Positions 12,062-21,973 of a stretch of DNA of 36,229 bases are shown here, piece after piece. Every line of letters begins with the position of its first letter. Position 1 is the stretch's first letter. The notes below the pieces were generated by a model. That model saw only the letters and a program-made list of their open reading frames with translations. It was not told the DNA's origin and did not search any database. A program made the position numbers and the translations under genes. This stretch comes from Chromatiales bacterium. GTDB taxonomy: Bacteria; Pseudomonadota; Gammaproteobacteria; Chromatiales; Chromatiaceae. Location of the stretch: assembly GCA_024762475.1 (NCBI GenBank), contig JANTHJ010000019.1, forward strand, positions 1-36,229, in the 5' to 3' direction.

Positions 12062-12106
12062 GCACCATTATTGTGCCCCACTCGCCAAGGTGCACTACAA
12101 TGGTGC
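12062..12106. promoter_or_regulatory. Two NtrC-binding sites forming the glnA enhancer
   Basis: GCACC-ATTAT-TGTGC (12062-12076) and GCACT-ACAAT-GGTGC (12092-12106) are NtrC-type palindromes whose centres are 30 bp apart, about three helical turns, as needed for cooperative binding. They lie about 195-225 bp upstream of the predicted sigma54 start. The second overlaps the stop codon of the upstream CDF gene. The remaining bases between 11773 and 12094 hold the glnA leader and promoter and no gene. Confidence 0.9.
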
Positions 12107-13252
12107 GCTTGTCCGGTATTTCAGTCGAACCACCCCGAAACGCGGATCCTCTCCCAGTGCCCCCTGCAACCGCTGGCGTAATTGTTCCGCCTGCTCTGGC
12201 TGGCAGTCGACCACCGGCAGTTCGAGATCGATCTCTATGCGGCCGGACAGGTAATGGAGCACGACCTCCCGGTCCTCCGGCAGATCATCGGGCCAGCGCT
12301 GACGCAGAAGCTGCAGTACCTCGCCCCGCAGCGGCAGATCGGTACAGGGTGGCGCCTGCTCGTCGTTCTCAGGGTCGACATGCACCGTGACGTCATTGAT
12401 GGTCTCCACCGCCTCCTTGAGCCGTTCCTCCACCGCGATGCTGATCATGTGGCCTTCCGACACCGAGAGCCGGGGATCGACCTGGACATGCACATCGGCC
12501 GAGGCCTGGTGGCCATGGCGACGGGTCCGCAACATGTGAATCGAACGCACCCCGTCGACCGACAGAATGGCCCGCCTCGCGATACTGACCTGCTCAGGGT
12601 CGAGCGCCGAATCCACCAGCTCCTGCATCGCCTCCCAACCCAGGTCCCAGCCGATCTTGGCGACCATGGCACCGACGACGACCGCGGCAACTGCATCCAG
12701 GTAGGGCCAGCCGGCCATGGCGCCGAGAATGCCCAGCAACACCACGATAGATGAGATGGCATCGCTGCGATGATGCCAGGCGTTGGCCTCGAGCATGCGT
12801 GAGCGGACCCGGCGCGCCACCACGATGGTGTACCAATAGAGCGCCTCCTTTGCCAGGATCGAGACGGCCGCGGCCCAGACCGCCAACACACCCGGGGTCG
12901 GGTAGGCGCCTGCGGCGACCCGCTCTACCGCATCCCACACGATACCCAGCGCCACCAGGCCCAGCAGGATGCCCAACCCCAGTGTCGCCGCGGTCTCGAA
13001 GCGACCGTGCCCGTAGGGGTGTTCCTCATCCGGCTCCTCGCCGGCGTGGCGCGCCGCGAACCAGACCAGGGCATCGGAGGCCAGGTCGGAGAGCGAGTGA
13101 ATCCCGTCTGCGACCAGCGCCGCGGAACTGGCCATGACGCCGACTACGAGCTTCAGCGCCGAGAGCAGCAGATTGACGACTGCCCCGACCAGGGTCACCC
13201 GCTGGCTGGCGCTGGCGCGCTCCTGGAGCAGGGGAGTGGCCGTTCCATTCAC
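12095..13252 (-). CDS. Cation diffusion facilitator (CDF) family transporter
   Basis: This 385-residue inner-membrane protein exports a divalent metal (Zn, Fe, Mn or Co; not decidable here) in exchange for protons. Six membrane helices fit residues 20-205. The metal-site motifs are DGIHSLSDLASD in helix 2 and NAWHHRSDAISS in helix 5, with HPYGHGRFE before helix 3. A cytoplasmic dimerisation domain follows (about 210-295). A further segment of about 90 residues (LRGEVLQLLRQRWPDD to the end) looks like a second ferredoxin-like domain, longer than typical CDF proteins. GTG 13252 overlaps the tusA stop as GTGA, indicating coupled translation. Its stop lies within an NtrC site of glnA. Confidence 0.93.
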   Translation of the reverse strand: MNGTATPLLQERASASQRVTLVGAVVNLLLSALKLVVGVMASSAALVADGIHSLSDLASDALVWFAARHAGEEPDEEHPYGHGRFETAATLGLGILLGLVALGIVWDAVERVAAGAYPTPGVLAVWAAAVSILAKEALYWYTIVVARRVRSRMLEANAWHHRSDAISSIVVLLGILGAMAGWPYLDAVAAVVVGAMVAKIGWDLGWEAMQELVDSALDPEQVSIARRAILSVDGVRSIHMLRTRRHGHQASADVHVQVDPRLSVSEGHMISIAVEERLKEAVETINDVTVHVDPENDEQAPPCTDLPLRGEVLQLLRQRWPDDLPEDREVVLHYLSGRIEIDLELPVVDCQPEQAEQLRQRLQGALGEDPRFGVVRLKYRTSAPL

Positions 13253-13485
13253 GTGCCACCCCCAACTCGCACAACCAAGATGTACTCGTCGCCCTGCTCA
13301 CGCAGTTCCAGCACCTGGTGGCCATTGATACGGCACCAGGCAGGGATATCGTTCATTGCCCCGGGATCGGTACAGACCGCCTCCAGCTCTTCGCCTGGTG
13401 CCAGCTCCGCAACCCGGTCCTGGACGCGGATTACCGGCATTGGGCAGAGTAGGCGGCGACAGTCTAGGGAATGGCGTGACGGCAT
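13249..13485 (-). CDS. TusA-family sulfur carrier protein
   Basis: The 78-residue protein is a small cytoplasmic sulfur carrier of the TusA/SirA fold. It has the defining CPMP motif with active Cys14 (RRLLCPMPVIRVQD), the ELEAVCTDPGAMNDIPAWC segment and a terminal beta strand. TusA relays persulfide sulfur to tRNA thiolation or, in sulfur oxidisers, to the Dsr/Hdr pathway; which applies cannot be told here. It overlaps the following CDF gene by four bases and lies 65 bases after the lipoprotein gene, so it may belong to the same transcript. Another Cys is at position 9. Confidence 0.9.
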   Translation of the reverse strand: MPSRHSLDCRRLLCPMPVIRVQDRVAELAPGEELEAVCTDPGAMNDIPAWCRINGHQVLELREQGDEYILVVRVGGGT

Positions 13486-13550: not shown

Positions 13551-13988
13551 TCAGGGACGGAAGCGTGTTGATCGAGGCCACTTGCCCGCGGGCAGGGGGA
13601 TACGATTCCCGTCGAGAAAGGTGCGGTAGCGCACCAGCCGCACCAGTCGGCCGCTCTTGCGTTTCACCTTGGCGTAGCGATCGCCTTCGGCGAGAATGTA
13701 GCGGCAACGCTCCCGTTCGAACTTCAGACAGATCCTGCCCTCCGGCGTCACCCGCCAGCTGCCGGCTCGCCAGGACCAGAATCGCTGCTGCACCACCCGC
13801 CCGTCCGGCCGGTAGTAGGTGAAGCTGCTCAGGCCCGTGTTGACATTGTGCGATTCCACCGTTCGACCGCCAAACAACGCCTCCACCTCACCGCGAGATA
13901 GCAGACGCTCGCTCTGCAGCACGGGTACCGTCACGCACCCGGCCAGGATCAACGAAAGGGCCAGGCCCGAGAGACATCGGAGCTTCAT
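13551..13988 (-). CDS. Predicted lipoprotein, 145 aa (last gene of the five-gene block)
   Basis: A lipoprotein signal sequence (MKLRCLSGLALSLILAGC) places the lipidated Cys at residue 18; the next residues VT do not include the Asp that signals inner-membrane retention, so outer-membrane sorting is likely. The mature part is a small beta-rich domain: LSRGEVEALFGGRTV, FTYYRPDGRVVQQRFW, GSWRVTPEGRICLKF, CRYILAEGDRYAKVKR. This pattern resembles DUF995-like stress or envelope proteins, tentatively. It overlaps the gene before it by four bases (ATGA). The C-terminus is basic. Exact function unknown. Confidence 0.82.
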   Translation of the reverse strand: MKLRCLSGLALSLILAGCVTVPVLQSERLLSRGEVEALFGGRTVESHNVNTGLSSFTYYRPDGRVVQQRFWSWRAGSWRVTPEGRICLKFERERCRYILAEGDRYAKVKRKSGRLVRLVRYRTFLDGNRIPLPAGKWPRSTRFRP

Positions 13989-14644
13989 CGATCCGTTCCC
14001 TTATTACGGTTCACCGATTGCAGCAATTGGATCACTCTTTGATAACGGTAGGCACGCGGCGGGAGTATGCCGATCAGCCCGCGCTCTCGATGCGATTTGC
14101 GCGTCTGGCGTTCCAGCCGCGTCTCTACCCCCAGCCGCGGCGACCACTCGATGAATCGGGTCTCCAATACCTTGCGGGTCCAGAGCTTGGGATGAATCTT
14201 GTAGCGCTCGCAGCGAAAGCGCCGAACCCTCTCGGTCCGCCCTGCAACCGCCCTGCGGACCTCACCCAGTGCGGTGCACTCATAGTTTCGCCGCTCGCGG
14301 TTGCCACGCCGGTCACTGCGGTCCATGACAAATTCTATCTTTGTACCGGATTGGGCCCGGAGCAGGCGAGCGGGGCTCCCCTGAACGAGCCGATGCCGAT
14401 AGCGGACGGTACCATCCAACCCCTTTCGTTCGAGCGGTGGCAACAGCGGGTTGGCGGACCGCCGCTCGGTGCGCAGGCGCTGGTCCTGCCAGACCTGCTC
14501 ACCACCTCGGGTCTGTTGCAACCGGTAGACAGAGCCATCGGAGTACACCAGTACCGTCCCCGGCGTCGGGGCGGCAGCCACCTTCGCCCCCAGCATGCAA
14601 CCTGCGATCAGGATGAGCCACTTCAGGCGGTAAATTGGTTTCAT
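13985..14644 (-). CDS. Secreted protein of unknown function, 219 aa
   Basis: The signal peptide (hydrophobic LKWLILIAGCMLGAKV, cleavage likely after VAAA) directs this to the periplasm or beyond; a Cys in the hydrophobic part makes a lipoprotein reading possible but less likely. The mature protein starts with beta strands (GTVLVYSDGSVYRLQ) and is very Arg-rich, with a probable disulfide pair (NYECTALGE and FRCERYKIH) and the segment RFIEWSPRLGVETR. I do not recognise the family. Both ends overlap neighbours as ATGA, so it is translated together with the hydrolase and the lipoprotein and probably acts with them in the envelope. Confidence 0.8.
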   Translation of the reverse strand: MKPIYRLKWLILIAGCMLGAKVAAAPTPGTVLVYSDGSVYRLQQTRGGEQVWQDQRLRTERRSANPLLPPLERKGLDGTVRYRHRLVQGSPARLLRAQSGTKIEFVMDRSDRRGNRERRNYECTALGEVRRAVAGRTERVRRFRCERYKIHPKLWTRKVLETRFIEWSPRLGVETRLERQTRKSHRERGLIGILPPRAYRYQRVIQLLQSVNRNKGTDR

Positions 14645-15540
14645 GCCACCTCTCCCGCTACCGGCCGAGAGGGTCGAGCCTCCATCGCGCTATTCTCCGA
14701 AGGAATCGACCCCTGGTCGGTACGGCCAGGCGTCCAATCCTCGTCATAGAACGCCTGGAAGAGGCGTTGTGGCAGGCCTCCGGGCCTGACCATCCGGGTA
14801 AAGTCGTGCCCCACGCCCGGCAGAATATCCAGGTCCACCCTGGGTGAGAGTCCCCGCTCCCGCGCCTCCCCGCGCATTGCCACAACCCAGTTACGCGCCC
14901 GCTCGAAGCGGCTTCGACCCTCCAGGCGATCGATCTTCTCCCGCGTATTGAACGAGGCATCGCGATGTCGGTCACGCTCTCCCACGAACACGAGCACCCG
15001 CTTGCGCAACAGCGCCGGCAGGTCGAAGGACGCCCGCAAAGTCGAACTTGACCCGATGCCCAGTGGGTAGCGAACCCGCTCGTCCGGCCAGGTGTACCAA
15101 CCGGCAGAACCCAGGGCCAATCGCCGTACCCGTTCCGGGTGAACCAGGGCAAAGCGATGGGCGAACTGTGCCCCGCCCGAAAAGCCGAACAGATCGAAGG
15201 GCGGCAAATCCCACCCGAACATCTGCTCGATCTCCTCGATCGCCTGCAGCAGGGCGAGATCGGCGCGCGGGCCACGTCCGCGTCGACCCAGACGCTGGTA
15301 GTCGGAGAAGTCGCCGCGTCCGAAGCGGGGCACCAGCATGGCCACGCCCCGCGAGGCCGCAAACGGCGCGAAGGCCTGCAGATGTTCCCGGTCATTGCGC
15401 GAGATACCGTGCACGCTGACCAGCCACCTGCGCGGTGCCATCCCGACAGAGGGAAGCAGCAGGGTGCAGGGCAGGGCAGGATCACCCTCGGTACGGATAT
15501 GGTAGAGGCAGGCTCGCGGGGCACCCGAAAGCCTGCTCAC
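14641..15540 (-). CDS. Alpha/beta-hydrolase fold protein
   Basis: The 299-residue product has an alpha/beta-hydrolase core with a complete likely triad: Ser121 in the nucleophile elbow GFSGG, Asp190 in VFVGERD, and His245 in GVGHDF. HG at 44-45 after WLVSV fits the oxyanion turn. No signal peptide or membrane helix is visible, so it is cytoplasmic. Esterases, thioesterases and peptidases all use this fold; the substrate cannot be deduced. The Ser region, LVHPERVRRLALGSAGWYTW, resembles plant- and bacterial-type esterases only loosely. It overlaps the ABC gene upstream and the secreted-protein gene downstream by four bases each. Confidence 0.85.
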   Translation of the reverse strand: MSRLSGAPRACLYHIRTEGDPALPCTLLLPSVGMAPRRWLVSVHGISRNDREHLQAFAPFAASRGVAMLVPRFGRGDFSDYQRLGRRGRGPRADLALLQAIEEIEQMFGWDLPPFDLFGFSGGAQFAHRFALVHPERVRRLALGSAGWYTWPDERVRYPLGIGSSSTLRASFDLPALLRKRVLVFVGERDRHRDASFNTREKIDRLEGRSRFERARNWVVAMRGEARERGLSPRVDLDILPGVGHDFTRMVRPGGLPQRLFQAFYDEDWTPGRTDQGSIPSENSAMEARPSRPVAGEVA

Positions 15541-17288
15541 AACTGGCCTCCCAGTGACACTGCGCGCAGCGTCGGCACGTCCGGTTCGGAGGCAAGCCCC
15601 AGCAACCGCCGCATCGCGTCGTCTCCTTGGAGCAGTGCACCCGGCTCGCCGGTAGCGACCAGGTCACCATTCTCCAACAACCAGAGCCCGTCGGCGGCAA
15701 GCATCAGATCGCGCCGGTGGCTGGCCATCAGCACCGTACCCGGAAATTCCGCCACCACCCGCTCGAGGGCCCTACGGGCCGCCATGTCCAGGTGCGCATC
15801 GGCCTCGTCCAGCAGCAGGATCTTCGGCGCCGCGATCAGCGCCCGGGCCAGGCTCAGACGCACCCGCTGACCCTGGGAGAGATTGCTTCCCCCCTCATTC
15901 ACACGGGCCTCCAGACCCTTGGGGAGCCGGGCTGCAAACTCGGTCACACCACACAGCTCGGCCACCTGCTGCAGTCGCGCCACGGTATCGGCAGTCGCCT
16001 TGCCCGGCAGGCCATAGAGGATATTACTGCGCAGGGTGCCCCGCAGCAGGGGTGCCTCGGGCCCCACATAGCCCACCAGGCCGGCCAACTCGTCGCTCGG
16101 CAGGTCCTCCAGGTCAACCCCGCCCAAGAGGATCCGGCCTGTACGCGGACGCCGCAGGCCGGCAAGCAGGCACAACAACGTGCTCTTCCCTGCCCCGTTC
16201 GGGCCGGCGATCACCACTTTTTCGCCGGCCGCGGCAGAGACGGTCAAAGCGTTCAGTGCGCCCTGCGCGGACACCGCCTCCAGCCGGATTTCGCCGTCCA
16301 CATCCGCTGGCACTGCCGGCACAGCCGGCGCGGGTTGCCGGTCGAGCCGACCTGCAAGGCGCTGGAGGTTCTCCAGGGCCACCTCCGAGCCAAGACGATA
16401 TTCCTGGGCACGCCCCAGATGACGCAGCGGCGTCGCGAGGAAGGCCACCAGGAAGAACACCGCCAGCAGATCTCCCGGCGAGCTCAGTCCGACCGGCACC
16501 AGTTGTCCCGCCGCCACAAAGGCGGCGACTAATGTGATCCCGACGCCCACCTCCACCGTCGCGCGCAGGTCACCGATGCGCGCGGCCTTGGTGCGCGCGG
16601 CCTCGATCAGGCGGCGGTTCTGCCTCGCCAGATGTCGGCGTTCATGCTCGGTCCGGGCGAACAATCGTATCGTCGGGACGACCGAGACCTTCTCCGTGAG
16701 ATTGGCCGCCAGCTGCCCCTGTCGGCGGCGCGCCTCTCCTACCGCCTGGCGCAGCCTGACGCCCTGGCGAACCAACACAGCGGCAGTGACGCCCAGGCCC
16801 ATGCCGACGGACAACGCATAGTAGGGGTGCAGGCTCCACAGGGCCACAAACACCACTGTGAAGGCAATGAATGCGACCAACAGTCGAGCCGCACCAAGGC
16901 TGATCCATTGGCGTACCGCGTTGAGATCGCCGACCAGGCGATACAGCAGCTGCCCCTTGCGCAAGCCACTGAGGGACCCGGTGTCACTGAGCAGGATACG
17001 GTTGAAAAGTCGCTTGCGGAGATCCCGCACATACAACTGCCCCAGCAGTTCCGCTTCCACCCGCTCGCGCCGCCGCAGCAGCCCGATGGCCAGTGCAATC
17101 AGCGGGAGTCCCAGCGCCTGCAGCCAGAGACTCGGGCCGCCGCGCACCGGCGCCATAAGGTAGGCCTCGAACAAGTGGCGGCCCTCCCAAGCGAACAGGA
17201 TGGCCAGCAGCGGCTGCGCCACCCCGACGGCCAGCAACAGCCCGAAATGATGCCGGCGGCGTCCCCTAAACAGCCTGGGCAGTCTCAT
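15537..17288 (-). CDS. ABC exporter, fused membrane and ATPase domains
   Basis: This 583-residue half-transporter has an exporter-type membrane domain (about 1-310, roughly six helices) and a C-terminal ATPase. The ATPase shows Walker A GPNGAGKST (362-370), signature LSQGQ (470-474), Walker B ILLLDEAD (490-497) and the switch His in MASHRR (524). The Q-loop reads YVGPEAPLL, so Pro or Glu replaces the usual Gln; the catalytic Glu is retained. It should act as a homodimer. Start ATG 17288 has AGGGAG upstream and overlaps the P-loop gene by 23 bases; the frame is open further upstream without homology. The substrate is unknown, but the partners suggest export of something handled by the hydrolase. 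Confidence 0.92.
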   Translation of the reverse strand: MRLPRLFRGRRRHHFGLLLAVGVAQPLLAILFAWEGRHLFEAYLMAPVRGGPSLWLQALGLPLIALAIGLLRRRERVEAELLGQLYVRDLRKRLFNRILLSDTGSLSGLRKGQLLYRLVGDLNAVRQWISLGAARLLVAFIAFTVVFVALWSLHPYYALSVGMGLGVTAAVLVRQGVRLRQAVGEARRRQGQLAANLTEKVSVVPTIRLFARTEHERRHLARQNRRLIEAARTKAARIGDLRATVEVGVGITLVAAFVAAGQLVPVGLSSPGDLLAVFFLVAFLATPLRHLGRAQEYRLGSEVALENLQRLAGRLDRQPAPAVPAVPADVDGEIRLEAVSAQGALNALTVSAAAGEKVVIAGPNGAGKSTLLCLLAGLRRPRTGRILLGGVDLEDLPSDELAGLVGYVGPEAPLLRGTLRSNILYGLPGKATADTVARLQQVAELCGVTEFAARLPKGLEARVNEGGSNLSQGQRVRLSLARALIAAPKILLLDEADAHLDMAARRALERVVAEFPGTVLMASHRRDLMLAADGLWLLENGDLVATGEPGALLQGDDAMRRLLGLASEPDVPTLRAVSLGGQL

Positions 17289-18381
17289 CGCGCGCTCCCT
17301 GGCGGGTTGCCGCTGCGAGCAAGGCCGCAGCCTGATGTGGATTCGACAGGTCGGTCTTTTCCAGCACGGGGACATCAAGATGCGCCGCCACCTCCGTCAT
17401 TGCCAGCGGCGCCGCAGTAAAGGCCCCGCTCACCCCGAGCACACGGTGGCCCTGGTGTCGGAGCATGGCCACGCCGTTGAGGGCGCCCATGGCATCGGCG
17501 CCGGCAAAGATGACTCCGTCGATGCGCTCGCGCAGATCGCGACTTTCTGCAAGCAGCGCCGTCTCCCGTTGCAAAAGCCCATCGGCGATCTCGATCAGCA
17601 CCACATCCGGGGATGCCGCGTGGGCGTGAGCGATCAGCCCAGCTGCGAGCGCCTCGATGCGCTCGCGCGACAATGACACCGTGGTGGCATGGCCCATATC
17701 GGTGAAGTCACCGACCCAGACGGCGCCCGCATCATGCATCATCCAGTAGTCACCGCCGGCACCGGTCCCGGTAACCTTGATACAGGCGACCCGCTTGCCA
17801 GCCCGGGCCAGGCCCAATGCCAGCCGCGCGAGGGCAGTGGTTTTGCCCGCGTTCATGCTGTTGCCGAAGACCGCCAGGGCGGGAATCGGGCGCGCTTCGG
17901 TGGGTAGGTCGTCCGGCGCTACCGCATAGCGCATCAGGTTCAGGACATGGCCGTTGGAATCGGCCAGCAGGCCTACCGGTTCGAGGACCGTGGGCGCAGA
18001 TACCGCCCGGTGGCGACACTGCTCCTGGGCGGCGATGCCACCGGCGGCCACCAGAGCGCACTGTTCCAGATCGGCCGGCAGCACCCCGCCAAACTGGTCG
18101 GGCGCATAACGCTCTCCGTAAGCGACCACGACATGGTCCCCGGCGAACAGATGCGCGCGCCTGCCATCGGGTCGTTCCAGGCGCTTGTGGTGGCCAATCC
18201 GACCCACCCTGGCCAGCAGGAGATCCCCGCTGCGCGGGGCATGGCCAGCAGTCACCAGGCCCGACACATCCGACAGCTCGACCCGGCGCGTGACGAAGCT
18301 GCGCTTGGCCCGGGCGAGAGGATTTTCCGAATCGAAGGGCTGAAATTCTTCCCGTGCCCCGGGGTAGGTCATCACATTCAT
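17266..18381 (-). CDS. P-loop NTPase, DUF1611-like in organisation (tentative)
   Basis: The 371-residue cytoplasmic protein has an N-terminal beta-rich domain (about 30-135) and a C-terminal P-loop domain. The nucleotide loop reads GNSMNAGKTT (173-182), followed by KRVACIKVTGTGAGGDYWMM, a possible Walker B at DVVLIEIADGLL, and GVIFAGADAMGA. This layout recalls DUF1611/DgcN-type and MobB/CobB-type P-loop proteins, but the match is by eye only. It is the first gene of the overlapping five-gene block and lies right behind a promoter with a palindrome in its spacer. It may couple ATP use to transfer or ligation of a small molecule; that is inference. Confidence 0.8.
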   Translation of the reverse strand: MNVMTYPGAREEFQPFDSENPLARAKRSFVTRRVELSDVSGLVTAGHAPRSGDLLLARVGRIGHHKRLERPDGRRAHLFAGDHVVVAYGERYAPDQFGGVLPADLEQCALVAAGGIAAQEQCRHRAVSAPTVLEPVGLLADSNGHVLNLMRYAVAPDDLPTEARPIPALAVFGNSMNAGKTTALARLALGLARAGKRVACIKVTGTGAGGDYWMMHDAGAVWVGDFTDMGHATTVSLSRERIEALAAGLIAHAHAASPDVVLIEIADGLLQRETALLAESRDLRERIDGVIFAGADAMGALNGVAMLRHQGHRVLGVSGAFTAAPLAMTEVAAHLDVPVLEKTDLSNPHQAAALLAAATRQGARDETAQAV

Positions 18382-18415: not shown

Positions 18416-18443
18416 AGCATAGTGGGAAAATATCCCATGTCAA
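18416..18443 (-). promoter_or_regulatory. Sigma70 promoter of the five-gene block with an internal operator-like palindrome
   Basis: On the minus strand TTGACA (18438-18443) is a perfect -35, and TATGCT (18416-18421) lies 16 bases downstream. The spacer is almost filled by the perfect inverted repeat TGGGA-TATTT-TCCCA (18423-18437), the usual place for a repressor site. A loosely Fur-box-like stretch (GATATTGAGAACGGTTTC, 18455-18472) lies just upstream. Confidence 0.6.
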
Positions 18444-18480: not shown

Positions 18481-19236
18481 TCAGAAATTTCTCATTAGAG
18501 AAACCCCTCCCGCTAGGTCCGCGGTGGCATCGCCGAAGCCCTTGATGATATAGGTCTGGAAGCGCCAGGCAGGGTCTGGCTTCCAGACATGAAACACCAT
18601 CAGACTGCGCCGGTCATCCTTGCCGTTGCGGTTGTTCTGCCGATAGCCGGCACTCACTCCGATATCCTGCTCCGGGCCCACAGGGTGGGAGAGCCCGGCA
18701 CGTGCCAGCCACACATCGCGGTAGTCAGTGGTTGCCGTGTCTCCATAGACGCGATAGCCGAGGGCGCCGAAGAGGGTGGTGCGGGAGAGCAACGCATAGG
18801 GCGCCAATTCGACAGTAAAGTCCGCCTTCCCCGTACCCAGCGCCTCGTCGTCGTCCGCAGTCGGCAGCTTGACCTTGCCGCGTAGCGAGGCGCCCACTCG
18901 GCGCCCACGATCGTAGAACAGGCGATAGCCGGCACTCAGCACGATATCGCCGAGGCCCTCGCGCACCCCTGTGCTCCCCGAGCCCGACAAGACCGTACCG
19001 TCGGGCAAGACGTTGCCGGCACCCTCGATGCGCAGCCAGGGAATGCTGGCCTTGAAGGTCCAGGGGCCGGACTTGTGCCGGATCCCGAACGACAGACTCT
19101 GGATATCGGTATCGGTGTTGGTGCCGTAGTCACCAGTGGAAAAGTAGGCACTCACTGACAATCTGGTTTGATCTGCCGCCGCACTGGCGCCAGTCCACAG
19201 CGCCAAAGCCATGCAAAACCCTAACACCCTGTTCAT
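18481..19236 (-). CDS. Predicted outer-membrane beta-barrel protein, 251 aa
   Basis: A signal peptide (MNRVLGFCMALALWTGASA) is followed by repeated amphipathic strands: TRLSVSAYFSTGDYG, SLSFGIRHKSGPWTFKASIP, GDIVLSAGYRLFYD, GASLRGKVKLPTA, LFGALGYRVYGD, DIGVSAGYRQNNRN, and a final SLMRNF ending in Phe, the sorting signal of barrels. The pattern of about 10-12 strands suits small transporter-like or unknown outer-membrane proteins; no substrate can be given. Start ATG 19236 has GGAGAA upstream. It is 132 bases downstream of the repeat-rich secreted protein, in the same direction, and next to the promoter of the five-gene block. Confidence 0.82.
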   Translation of the reverse strand: MNRVLGFCMALALWTGASAAADQTRLSVSAYFSTGDYGTNTDTDIQSLSFGIRHKSGPWTFKASIPWLRIEGAGNVLPDGTVLSGSGSTGVREGLGDIVLSAGYRLFYDRGRRVGASLRGKVKLPTADDDEALGTGKADFTVELAPYALLSRTTLFGALGYRVYGDTATTDYRDVWLARAGLSHPVGPEQDIGVSAGYRQNNRNGKDDRRSLMVFHVWKPDPAWRFQTYIIKGFGDATADLAGGVSLMRNF

Positions 19237-19368
19237 CTTGTTCTCCTCGAGTCCAGCCTTTGGTGTATTGACACTGCGTCGCGCGCAGGCTACCGGAAGG
19301 GGATTTTGCGCAGGACCGGCAAGCTCTTCTGTGACCTCGGACACGCAGAGCCGATTCGGCCGGAGCCC

Positions 19369-21165
19369 TCAATCAGAATCGGTGCCACTGTCGTCCGGTA
19401 CGTCGGGCACGTCCGGGGTATCGGGCTCATCCGGGGTGTCGGGCACATCCGGGGTATCGGGCACGTCCGGGGTATCGGGCACGTCCGGGGTATCGGGCAC
19501 GTCCGGGGTATCGGGCACGTCCGGGGTATCGGGCACGTCCGGGGTATCGGGTTCGTCCGGGGTGTCGGGCTCATCCGGGGTATCGGGTTCGTCCGGGGTG
19601 TCGGGCACGTCCGGGGTGTCGGGCACGTCCGGGGTATCGGGCTCATCCGGGGTATCGGGCTCATCCGGGGTATCGGGTTCGTCCGGGGTGTCGGGCACGT
19701 CCGGGGTATCGGGCTCATCCGGGGTATCGGGTTCATCCGGGGTCTCGGGCTCATCCGGGGTCTCGGGCTCATCCGGGGTGTCGGGCTCATCCGGGGTGTC
19801 GGGCTGATCCCGGCCCGCGTGTTCGCCCGGATCTCCGTGGTCATCCAGATCTTCGGCGGCTTCTGCGCTCCGCCCGGAAGGGTCGCCCTCCGGCAATTCT
19901 GGCCCCCGATGCTTTCTGCCGCGATCCTCGGCGTCGGCATCTCCACCCGCCACGCGCCGGAGCTGCTCGGTGGATTCGTCGGACGCTCTTTCCGATCCCG
20001 TCTTACCAGGATCTTCATCTTTTTCTCTTCGGTCGTGTTCAGAATGCCTGGTGGCAGACGCGGCCGCACCCCTGTCACGGCCGCCATCATCTCGCCCGCC
20101 GCCGCTGACCGAACCACGCCCTGATCGGGTTTCCGAATGCCGTCCGGTGCCAGTCTCCGACGCTTTGCCAGGACCCCGCTGCTCACGCGATTCTCTGTCT
20201 TCCAGACCCGGTCGAGCGGCGCCGGCCTGATCGTGCAGATCATCGAAATCCTGCTCTACCAGTACCTCGGCGGCGCCGTCACGCACCAGCAGCGTCACCG
20301 GCTCGCCCGGCGTTGCCCTCACACCTCGGGGCGCTGCGACGCTCGGGCCCTCGACCAGTTGCAATTCACCCTGCTGGGCTCGGGCCACAACGGCCTGAAT
20401 CACCGCGATACCCGCGTCCGGCAATCGCAAGGGCCTTGGCCGGTCTATGACCAGGCCCGGTGGCGCCGAATCGATACGGGTTGCGTGGATACCCCCATCC
20501 GGCCGTTGCAATCCGCTGACCGCCACGGTCTGGCCGGCGTTCAGTTTGGCCATCGCAGATGCCGGCACATCCACCGGCACGCCCGCCACCCGGATTCGGG
20601 CGGCGAGGGGATCTACGGCCTCGATCGCCCCGGCCACGGCATACTCGATGCTGATGTCCTCGGCCACGAATCCGCGCGGCGCCCGAATGGCACGGATATC
20701 AACCAACTGACCGACCGCCAGCTCATTCGCCGCAATAGGGCGCCCGTCGATGCGTACCGGCGTGTCGCTGGCGTAGTGGATTTCCAGACCATTGACACAA
20801 ACGCTGCCGAAGCCGGTGACCACGCCGCGCACGAACAGTTGGTTTGGACGACCGGTACCACCCAGGCCCCCCCGCTCGGCATGTCCGGTGCCACCAAAGC
20901 CTTCCGGCAACACCGCACCAACCCGGCGCCCGGTACCCCCGAGGCCCTCGCCCCGATGCCCGGTTCCCCCCAAGCCACCCCGGTCACGGCGCAACCCGGT
21001 ACCGCCGATGCCATCGGTGTCTCCCTTTTCCTCGCGCAGGCCGGTGCCACCCAGGCCATCGTAGATAGCGGCAAGCTCCGGCAATTGACAGGGGTTGGCC
21101 ATGGCCGCTGCCCAAGGCAGCCACCACAGCAATAAAGCGGCAAACAGCGCGTTACGGCTGATCAT
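19369..21165 (-). CDS. Secreted DUF5666-type protein with GGTG motifs and a hexapeptide-repeat tail
   Basis: The 598-residue product starts with a signal peptide (MISRNALFAALLLWWLPWAA, cleavage near AMA). Six GGTG motifs follow (GLGGTG, GIGGTG, GFGGTG) within about 80 residues, then about two DUF5666-type beta modules (VRGVVTGFGSVCVNGLEI, AVGQLVDIRAIRAPRGF, VAVSGLQRPDGGIHATRI). A long hydrophilic, probably disordered region rich in Arg, Asp, Glu and Gly follows. The last part is 22 hexapeptides PDTPD[E/V] before DDSGTDSD. It is very acidic at the end and likely extracytoplasmic, perhaps spanning or binding cations. Start ATG 21165 overlaps the DUF6502 gene by 14 bases, which indicates coupled expression. 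Confidence 0.85.
   Translation of the reverse strand: MISRNALFAALLLWWLPWAAAMANPCQLPELAAIYDGLGGTGLREEKGDTDGIGGTGLRRDRGGLGGTGHRGEGLGGTGRRVGAVLPEGFGGTGHAERGGLGGTGRPNQLFVRGVVTGFGSVCVNGLEIHYASDTPVRIDGRPIAANELAVGQLVDIRAIRAPRGFVAEDISIEYAVAGAIEAVDPLAARIRVAGVPVDVPASAMAKLNAGQTVAVSGLQRPDGGIHATRIDSAPPGLVIDRPRPLRLPDAGIAVIQAVVARAQQGELQLVEGPSVAAPRGVRATPGEPVTLLVRDGAAEVLVEQDFDDLHDQAGAARPGLEDRESREQRGPGKASETGTGRHSETRSGRGSVSGGGRDDGGRDRGAAASATRHSEHDRREKDEDPGKTGSERASDESTEQLRRVAGGDADAEDRGRKHRGPELPEGDPSGRSAEAAEDLDDHGDPGEHAGRDQPDTPDEPDTPDEPETPDEPETPDEPDTPDEPDTPDVPDTPDEPDTPDEPDTPDEPDTPDVPDTPDVPDTPDEPDTPDEPDTPDEPDTPDVPDTPDVPDTPDVPDTPDVPDTPDVPDTPDVPDTPDEPDTPDVPDVPDDSGTDSD
19408..19803 (-). repeat. Tandem 18-bp repeat, 22 copies
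   Basis: The unit encodes PDTPDE or PDTPDV (two PETPDE). The copies differ mainly at the codon for E/V and at one synonymous base, so the array is young or homogenised. Unit length is a multiple of three, so copy-number changes keep the frame. No stop occurs in most frames, which explains the long false ORFs on both strands. Confidence 0.97.
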
Positions 21166-21973
21166 CTCGCGCGGGTTCGTCGTAGTAATAGAGACCGACC
21201 GCGAGCAGTCGGCGGTCGGGCGCCTCCGGGTCCTTGGCCGCGCTGGCCTGACGGTTGATCTCCTTGAGCAAGGCCATGCCCTGCTCCTCGAGCAGGTCAC
21301 GGATGGCCGGAAGGGCCTCGGGCGGAATGCTGTGATATTGCACCACCCGGTCGAAATACGGTGGTTCCTGTCCCTCCAGGTTGCGCACGCCGGCCATCAG
21401 ATGGGCATACCCGGCCTGCTCGAAGTAGTAGAGCTTCTCACCCTCCGACTGGGTCGGGACGAAGGCCTCGGTGACCAGTCTTACCCGGTCATCCTCGAGC
21501 GCGACCACGCCCACCCGCAGCAGTTCGTCGAGGATGGCACGCGGGCGTACGTCGCTGCTGATCTCGTTCGACAACATGTCGAAATCTCTCTCCCCCTCCA
21601 CCTTGGAGTCGCGCGGCAATACCAGCGGGTGACCCTGCTCGTCCTGCCAGCCGGGCGCAGTCATCCAGGCATTCACCAACTGCACTCCCACCGACACCCG
21701 CTTCGGCACATCGTTCCTTTGGAATCCCATTTCGCGGAAGCGCTTCACGTCCTTGCGATGCACCCCGGTCAGGACGCTGATGCGACTGTCGGTGGTACGT
21801 TTGCCCTCCACCGGAAAATCATGGATGGCGACATCCACCATGACCTGTTTGAATAGCTCGACGATGGCCGGCAGAGTAATGCCATGGCGGATCATCAGCC
21901 GCGCAAGGGGGCGCAACAGGCGTCGTACCGCCCCCATCACCCGCTTCGGTAGTTCGTCCAGTGCCTCTTCCAT
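21152..21973 (-). CDS. DUF6502 family protein
   Basis: The 273-residue cytoplasmic protein shows the DUF6502 pattern: an N-terminal helical part (LARLMIRHGITLPAIVELFKQVMVDVA), a winged-helix-like segment (TDSRISVLTGVHRKDVKRF), AWMTAPGWQDEQGHPLVLPR, then a region with VGVVALEDDRVRLV and a C-terminal stretch containing GLYYYDEP. The HTH-like segment suggests nucleic-acid binding, but no function is established to my knowledge. DUF6502 genes commonly sit before DUF5666 genes, as here with a 14-base overlap. It starts 29 bases after the PP-loop gene, so three genes may form one transcript. No good ribosome binding site precedes ATG 21973. Confidence 0.87.
   Translation of the reverse strand: MEEALDELPKRVMGAVRRLLRPLARLMIRHGITLPAIVELFKQVMVDVAIHDFPVEGKRTTDSRISVLTGVHRKDVKRFREMGFQRNDVPKRVSVGVQLVNAWMTAPGWQDEQGHPLVLPRDSKVEGERDFDMLSNEISSDVRPRAILDELLRVGVVALEDDRVRLVTEAFVPTQSEGEKLYYFEQAGYAHLMAGVRNLEGQEPPYFDRVVQYHSIPPEALPAIRDLLEEQGMALLKEINRQASAAKDPEAPDRRLLAVGLYYYDEPARDDQP

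Follow-up and report, generated by a model that had tools for sequence, protein, structure and literature searches.

A mobile proteobacterial operon of a SIMIBI NTPase-fold protein, a transporter and a hydrolase, with a possible role in modifying and exporting a small acidic amino-acid compound

Described relatives of the encoded proteins

An operon located in the window, the 36,229-nucleotide stretch of DNA from a Chromatiales bacterium analyzed here, brings together genes whose products, here named A to E, resemble members of several described systems. Protein A has a C-terminal SIMIBI fold in common with DUF1611 proteins, such as DgcN, the D-glutamate N-acetyltransferase that occurs with DgcA, and this relationship places glutamate-type chemistry among the relatives of A. 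However, A falls below the Pfam cut-off for DUF1611, possesses a beta-rich N-terminal half, and is partnered with a transporter and a hydrolase rather than with the DgcA epimerase. The C-terminal fold is likewise similar to that of dethiobiotin synthetase (BioD), from which A differs by its additional N-terminal domain, by an identity of only ∼20%, and by the lack of biotin genes nearby. The hydrolase C has the same nucleophile and the same GWYTxPD, QGxxR, and catalytic His motifs over the hydrolase domain as the PahZ1/LpqC family, some members of which are known under the second name. C nonetheless represents a separate subfamily whose genes keep a fixed operon context with those for A and a transporter, and no signal peptide was seen in the copy from the window.

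The transporter B has the half-transporter build of ABCB-type exporters (similar to MsbA, Sav1866, and P-glycoprotein), in which a membrane domain (TMD) is followed by an ATPase domain (NBD). In contrast to these exporters, the B family lacks the Q-loop Gln in all aligned members, and its NBD has repeatedly been degraded or deleted. For LmrA, truncation to the membrane domain leaves a protein able to work as a secondary transporter without an NBD, and in ArsA-ArsB, a SIMIBI ATPase serves a carrier. Both examples belong to families different from those of A and B.

Five overlapping genes on one strand

The five open reading frames lie on the minus strand of the window, and a check of the reading frames returned exactly the successive overlaps of 23, 4, 4, and 4 bases that had been claimed in an earlier note on this DNA. 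A (17266 to 18381, 371 amino acids) is a SIMIBI P-loop NTPase-fold protein with the Walker A motif GNSMNAGKT. B (15537 to 17288, 583 amino acids) is the ABCB-type half-transporter (TMD plus NBD), with an ATG start codon that yields the 23-base overlap with A; a longer reading frame starting from TTG at position 17378 was unneeded, and the ATG at 17288 is preferred. C (14641 to 15540, 299 amino acids, GTG start) is an alpha/beta hydrolase of the PahZ1/LpqC family. D (13985 to 14644, 219 amino acids) is a basic envelope protein (pI 11.4) that has a signal-peptide-like N terminus and matches no known family, and E (13551 to 13988, 145 amino acids) is a basic lipoprotein (pI 11.1) with the lipobox LAGC and a match to DUF995 just above the threshold (21.2 bits against a cut-off of 20).

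A sigma-70-like promoter (TTGACA-16-TATGCT, positions 18416 to 18443 of the minus strand), which is a consensus match only (10/12), is present just 5′ of A. On the same strand, a gene for an outer-membrane beta-barrel protein (Phenol_MetA_deg, 18481 to 19344) precedes A by approximately 100 bases. The barrel gene is closed by a terminator-like hairpin (18483 to 18508, minus strand), also a consensus match only, and shuffled sequences gave as many. The barrel gene occupies this place at eight loci of two classes (the window, L021, and six Novosphingobium/Sphingomonadaceae loci). Despite this conserved place, a single transcript spanning the barrel gene and A was not adopted because the terminator-like and promoter-like sites intervene.

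Protein A, hydrolase C, and the predicted substrate class

Profile searches of Pfam and NCBIfam yielded weak matches of A to MobB and CbiA. DUF1611 was weakly matched by 8/12 aligned members of the A family (best E value, 2.2e-4), short of the curated cut-off of Pfam PF07755, and A itself gave no listed match; the labels assigned by NCBI to plasmid homologues of A are DUF1611 and, for one of them, dethiobiotin synthetase. In an AlphaFold2 model of A (mean pLDDT, 81.5), residues 162 to 362 form the SIMIBI fold, which matched dethiobiotin synthetase 3fmi (Z of 16.0, rmsd of 3.0 over 180 residues), the DUF1611-type protein TM0796 (2g0t; Z of 16.0, rmsd of 3.0 over 170), and 2obn (Z of 13.9, rmsd of 3.3 over 178). 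Many other SIMIBI proteins score close behind the first two, and thus the fold alone assigns no function to A. The beta-rich N-terminal half includes a RYAPDQF motif that is invariant among the aligned homologues. Modeled alone, this domain reached a mean pLDDT of 62.6 and had no PDB match at an E value of ≤0.001. Among the DUF1611 proteins, those adjoining an enolase-superfamily epimerase-like gene matched the NCBI model of the N-acetyltransferase DgcN slightly below its cut-off, and a profile-profile comparison of A with DgcN-type sequences gave no match, with a DUF1611 profile of three sequences only.

C matched 9o7u (E = 1.8e-37), 6ve6 (7e-36), and 3d0k (2.4e-33) in the PDB over the full domain. 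The complete Ser121-Asp190-His245 triad attributed to it in the earlier note withstood comparison: the Ser and His are invariant and the Asp is nearly so among 13 homologues, and all three residues align with those of poly(Asp) hydrolase-1, the closest PDB relative. Signal peptides were recognized by eye in the C proteins of two other loci (L037 and L040), so the compartment of C differs between loci.

The genes found beside members of the A family encode a RimK-like ATP-grasp ligase (L070), Asparaginase_2 (L075 and L076), and M20 peptidases (L049, L050, and L058). More distant relatives, which are related to A over the full length (hhalign probability of 100 for the pooled distant set), are located inside arginine operons with ArgR, ArgC, ArgB, and N-acetylornithine carbamoyltransferase (L044, 8820 to 9929; L048, 8570 to 9676; and also L045, L046, L047, and L057). 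Neither ArgJ nor a GNAT-bearing ArgA was found in the six arginine-associated genomes tested, where the ArgA model matched the kinase part only, except for two short stray matches. The A-type genes of these operons, which are without known N-acetylglutamate synthases, are therefore a concrete candidate for the missing enzyme, although a different sort of GNAT synthase, for instance that of Caldithrix type (PMC7311316), may be present in the six genomes.

Taken together, the neighbors of A and the kinship of C to poly(Asp) hydrolase point to amides or N-acyl derivatives of acidic amino acids, from which we infer that the substrate is a small acidic amino-acid derivative. We estimate a probability of roughly 40% that the locus is an undescribed proteobacterial operon for the modification, trimming, and export of such a compound (Asp- or Glu-type; amide- or isopeptide-linked or N-acylated). 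In the proposed pathway, A, as an enzyme similar to dethiobiotin synthetase and DUF1611 proteins, would modify or activate the compound in the cytoplasm, and C, as a serine hydrolase similar to poly(Asp) hydrolase, would cleave the compound at an amide or ester bond. Transport across the inner membrane would fall to B, and in relatives to an MFS transporter or to a TMD devoid of ATPase. The compound would leave the cell through an outer-membrane barrel or Porin_O_P protein, and in the lineage of the window, the basic proteins D and E would bind it at the envelope. The position of A below the DUF1611 cut-off and the null result of the DgcN profile comparison weaken this reading, and gene neighborhood speaks only indirectly to the chemistry and the substrate.

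Conservation and mobility of the operon

Homologues were searched for in genome contigs, in Gammaproteobacteria, in the phylum, in a second class, and in the family of a Novosphingobium genome, which together represent a partial sampling. In total, 50 loci, including the window, had a homologue of A at an E value of <1e-60 (A is the same in L065 and L066), and A was present in 18/369 (∼5%) of the sampled genomes of the window's class. At 40/50 loci, which are distributed over the Alpha-, Beta-, and Gammaproteobacteria, the next gene after A on the same strand is B, and the two genes overlap or abut at most loci. Of these A-B loci, 35 have 4.2 kb or more of sequence following A; among them, C is next in line at 23 and absent from 12, and a Porin_O_P gene lies behind C at 17. 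ECF sigma genes are present near 12 loci and S8 subtilase genes near 12, and a set of ECF sigma, anti-sigma, and subtilase genes often adjoins A-B-C. The order C-A-B is also carried by a conjugative Sulfitobacter plasmid and, with subtilase and ECF sigma genes, by Paracoccus plasmids. The recurrence of A-B-C in three classes and on plasmids indicates that the adjacency is more than chance, and there is little doubt that the conserved operon is real.

The earlier note had proposed a five-gene layout for making or trimming, exporting, and surface handling of a product. The parts fit such a layout, and the order of A, B, and C recurs, but D and E have homologues at only three of the 50 loci (the window, L021, and L056). 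The core is A-B-C plus an outer-membrane protein, with D and E as accessories. The order D-A-B-C-E at L056 indicates that D and E are able to travel with the module; they are uninformative on the substrate. The absence of C from 12 A-B loci and its varying compartment further weaken the case for a pathway of modification, trimming, and export. As supposed in that note, the gene set matched no named system in Pfam or NCBIfam, and no description of the operon was found in the literature searched on its protein families and gene set. The conservation and mobility of this apparently undescribed operon suggest a novel secreted metabolite or resistance route in environmental Proteobacteria.

The patchy distribution and the carriage on plasmids, one of them conjugative, are also consistent with a detoxification, resistance, or immunity module under ECF sigma control, in which A and C would inactivate a toxic amino-acid-like compound that is expelled by B or an MFS transporter. 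Such a module would be compatible with the interchangeable exporters and with the ECF sigma genes, but the conserved outer-membrane porin or barrel and the subtilase are atypical of resistance modules, no known resistance family was matched in Pfam or NCBIfam, and PADLOC returned only generic ATPase matches, on B, leaving this explanation unlikely. On the same PADLOC result, a defense system was rejected.

Repeated loss of the ATPase domain of transporter B

B contains an ABC_membrane domain (3.5e-16) and an ABC_tran domain (1.7e-25) in one chain. In the window, the Walker A motif, the signature, Walker B with its catalytic Glu, and the H-loop are all intact, and the Q-loop has Pro instead of Gln; none of the 13 aligned B proteins has this Gln, its position being taken by Pro, Ala, Ser, or another residue. 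The label of ABC exporter given in the earlier note calls for caution, because relatives repeatedly lose the NBD or have an MFS transporter in the place of B. Across the 38 loci where its state could be judged, the NBD, with Walker A and Walker B as the criterion, is intact at 24, degraded at 9, and missing at 5, where B is a TMD only (14/38 lost). The TMD-only genes are those of L022, L024, L029, L077, and L080, with no NBD found nearby. Since the open frames are long and occur in several species, sequencing error is an unlikely cause of the loss. Beyond these 38 loci, all NBD motifs are gone from the two Paracoccus plasmid copies of B, and Walker A and Walker B are both retained on the Sulfitobacter plasmid.

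When the intact and lost states were mapped on a tree of A, which was built by a quick, low-effort method, at least three separate changes were required. Well-supported branches separate the losses in a sphingomonad clade, in L055 (beside the intact L073), and in L042/L043/L086. At L030 and L031, which carry A-C-MFS operons, an MFS transporter takes the place of B, which argues that the substrate is small.

An ABC transporter that sheds its ATPase beside an intact NTPase is the most surprising element of the operon. The Walker A motif of A is intact in 50/50 homologues, including those beside a degraded or deleted NBD, and together with the separate losses and the close spacing of A and B, this pattern would be expected if A were the motor or gatekeeper of B, that is, a detached SIMIBI ATPase that energizes or controls a decaying ABC transporter in the manner of ArsA-ArsB, with C and the porin handling the cargo. 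However, members of the A family also occur without B (beside ligases, peptidases, or arginine genes) or with an MFS transporter, and because a truncated TMD can serve as a secondary transporter, as in LmrA, a new motor would be unneeded. We consider this role of A distinctly improbable. To the same limited degree, A may have replaced the ATPase of B or made it unnecessary, giving a mixed system in which the TMD is kept while the NBD decays or vanishes in several lineages. The repeated loss is likewise odd for an exporter and counts against the modification and export pathway favored above. Through the natural series, in which an ABC transporter loses its ATPase stepwise beside an intact NTPase, it becomes directly testable what powers the dead ABC engine or takes its place.

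The decay of the NBD could also reflect an envelope sensing or stress system, in which a B protein with a dead NBD would sense a ligand whose level is set by A and C, with the ECF sigma, anti-sigma, and subtilase proteins as the output. Both alpha and gamma lineages, as well as plasmids, carry the ECF sigma and subtilase genes, as such a system would predict, but neither gene lies beside the operon in the window or at many gamma loci, and replacement by an MFS transporter would be unexpected for a sensor. This explanation is accordingly very unlikely.

Flanking genes

A tusA gene and a CDF transporter gene (12095 to 13485) overlap each other by 4 bases and begin 65 bases after E. The suggestion that they might be part of the operon was not borne out: the pair follows the operon only in the window and in L021, its nearest relative, and the two genes were set aside as lineage-specific neighbors. 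Overlaps without wider conservation, such as theirs, are no evidence of shared function by themselves, but the chance co-transcription of unrelated housekeeping genes in this genome, though possible for D and E, is contradicted for A-B-C by the recurring order and can hardly account for the operon.

Upstream of the barrel gene, the window encodes a DUF5666 protein (19369 to 21300) that contains GGTG repeats and a long tail of acidic DTPDEP repeats, beside a DUF6502 protein (21152 to 21973). Both families are present near the operon in the window, L021, L037, and L040, with the pair preceding the operon in the latter two, and DUF5666 is also found near the operon in L083 and L085. The secreted S8 subtilases beside the operon in L070 and L090 possess long Asp/Gly-rich tracts at the N terminus.
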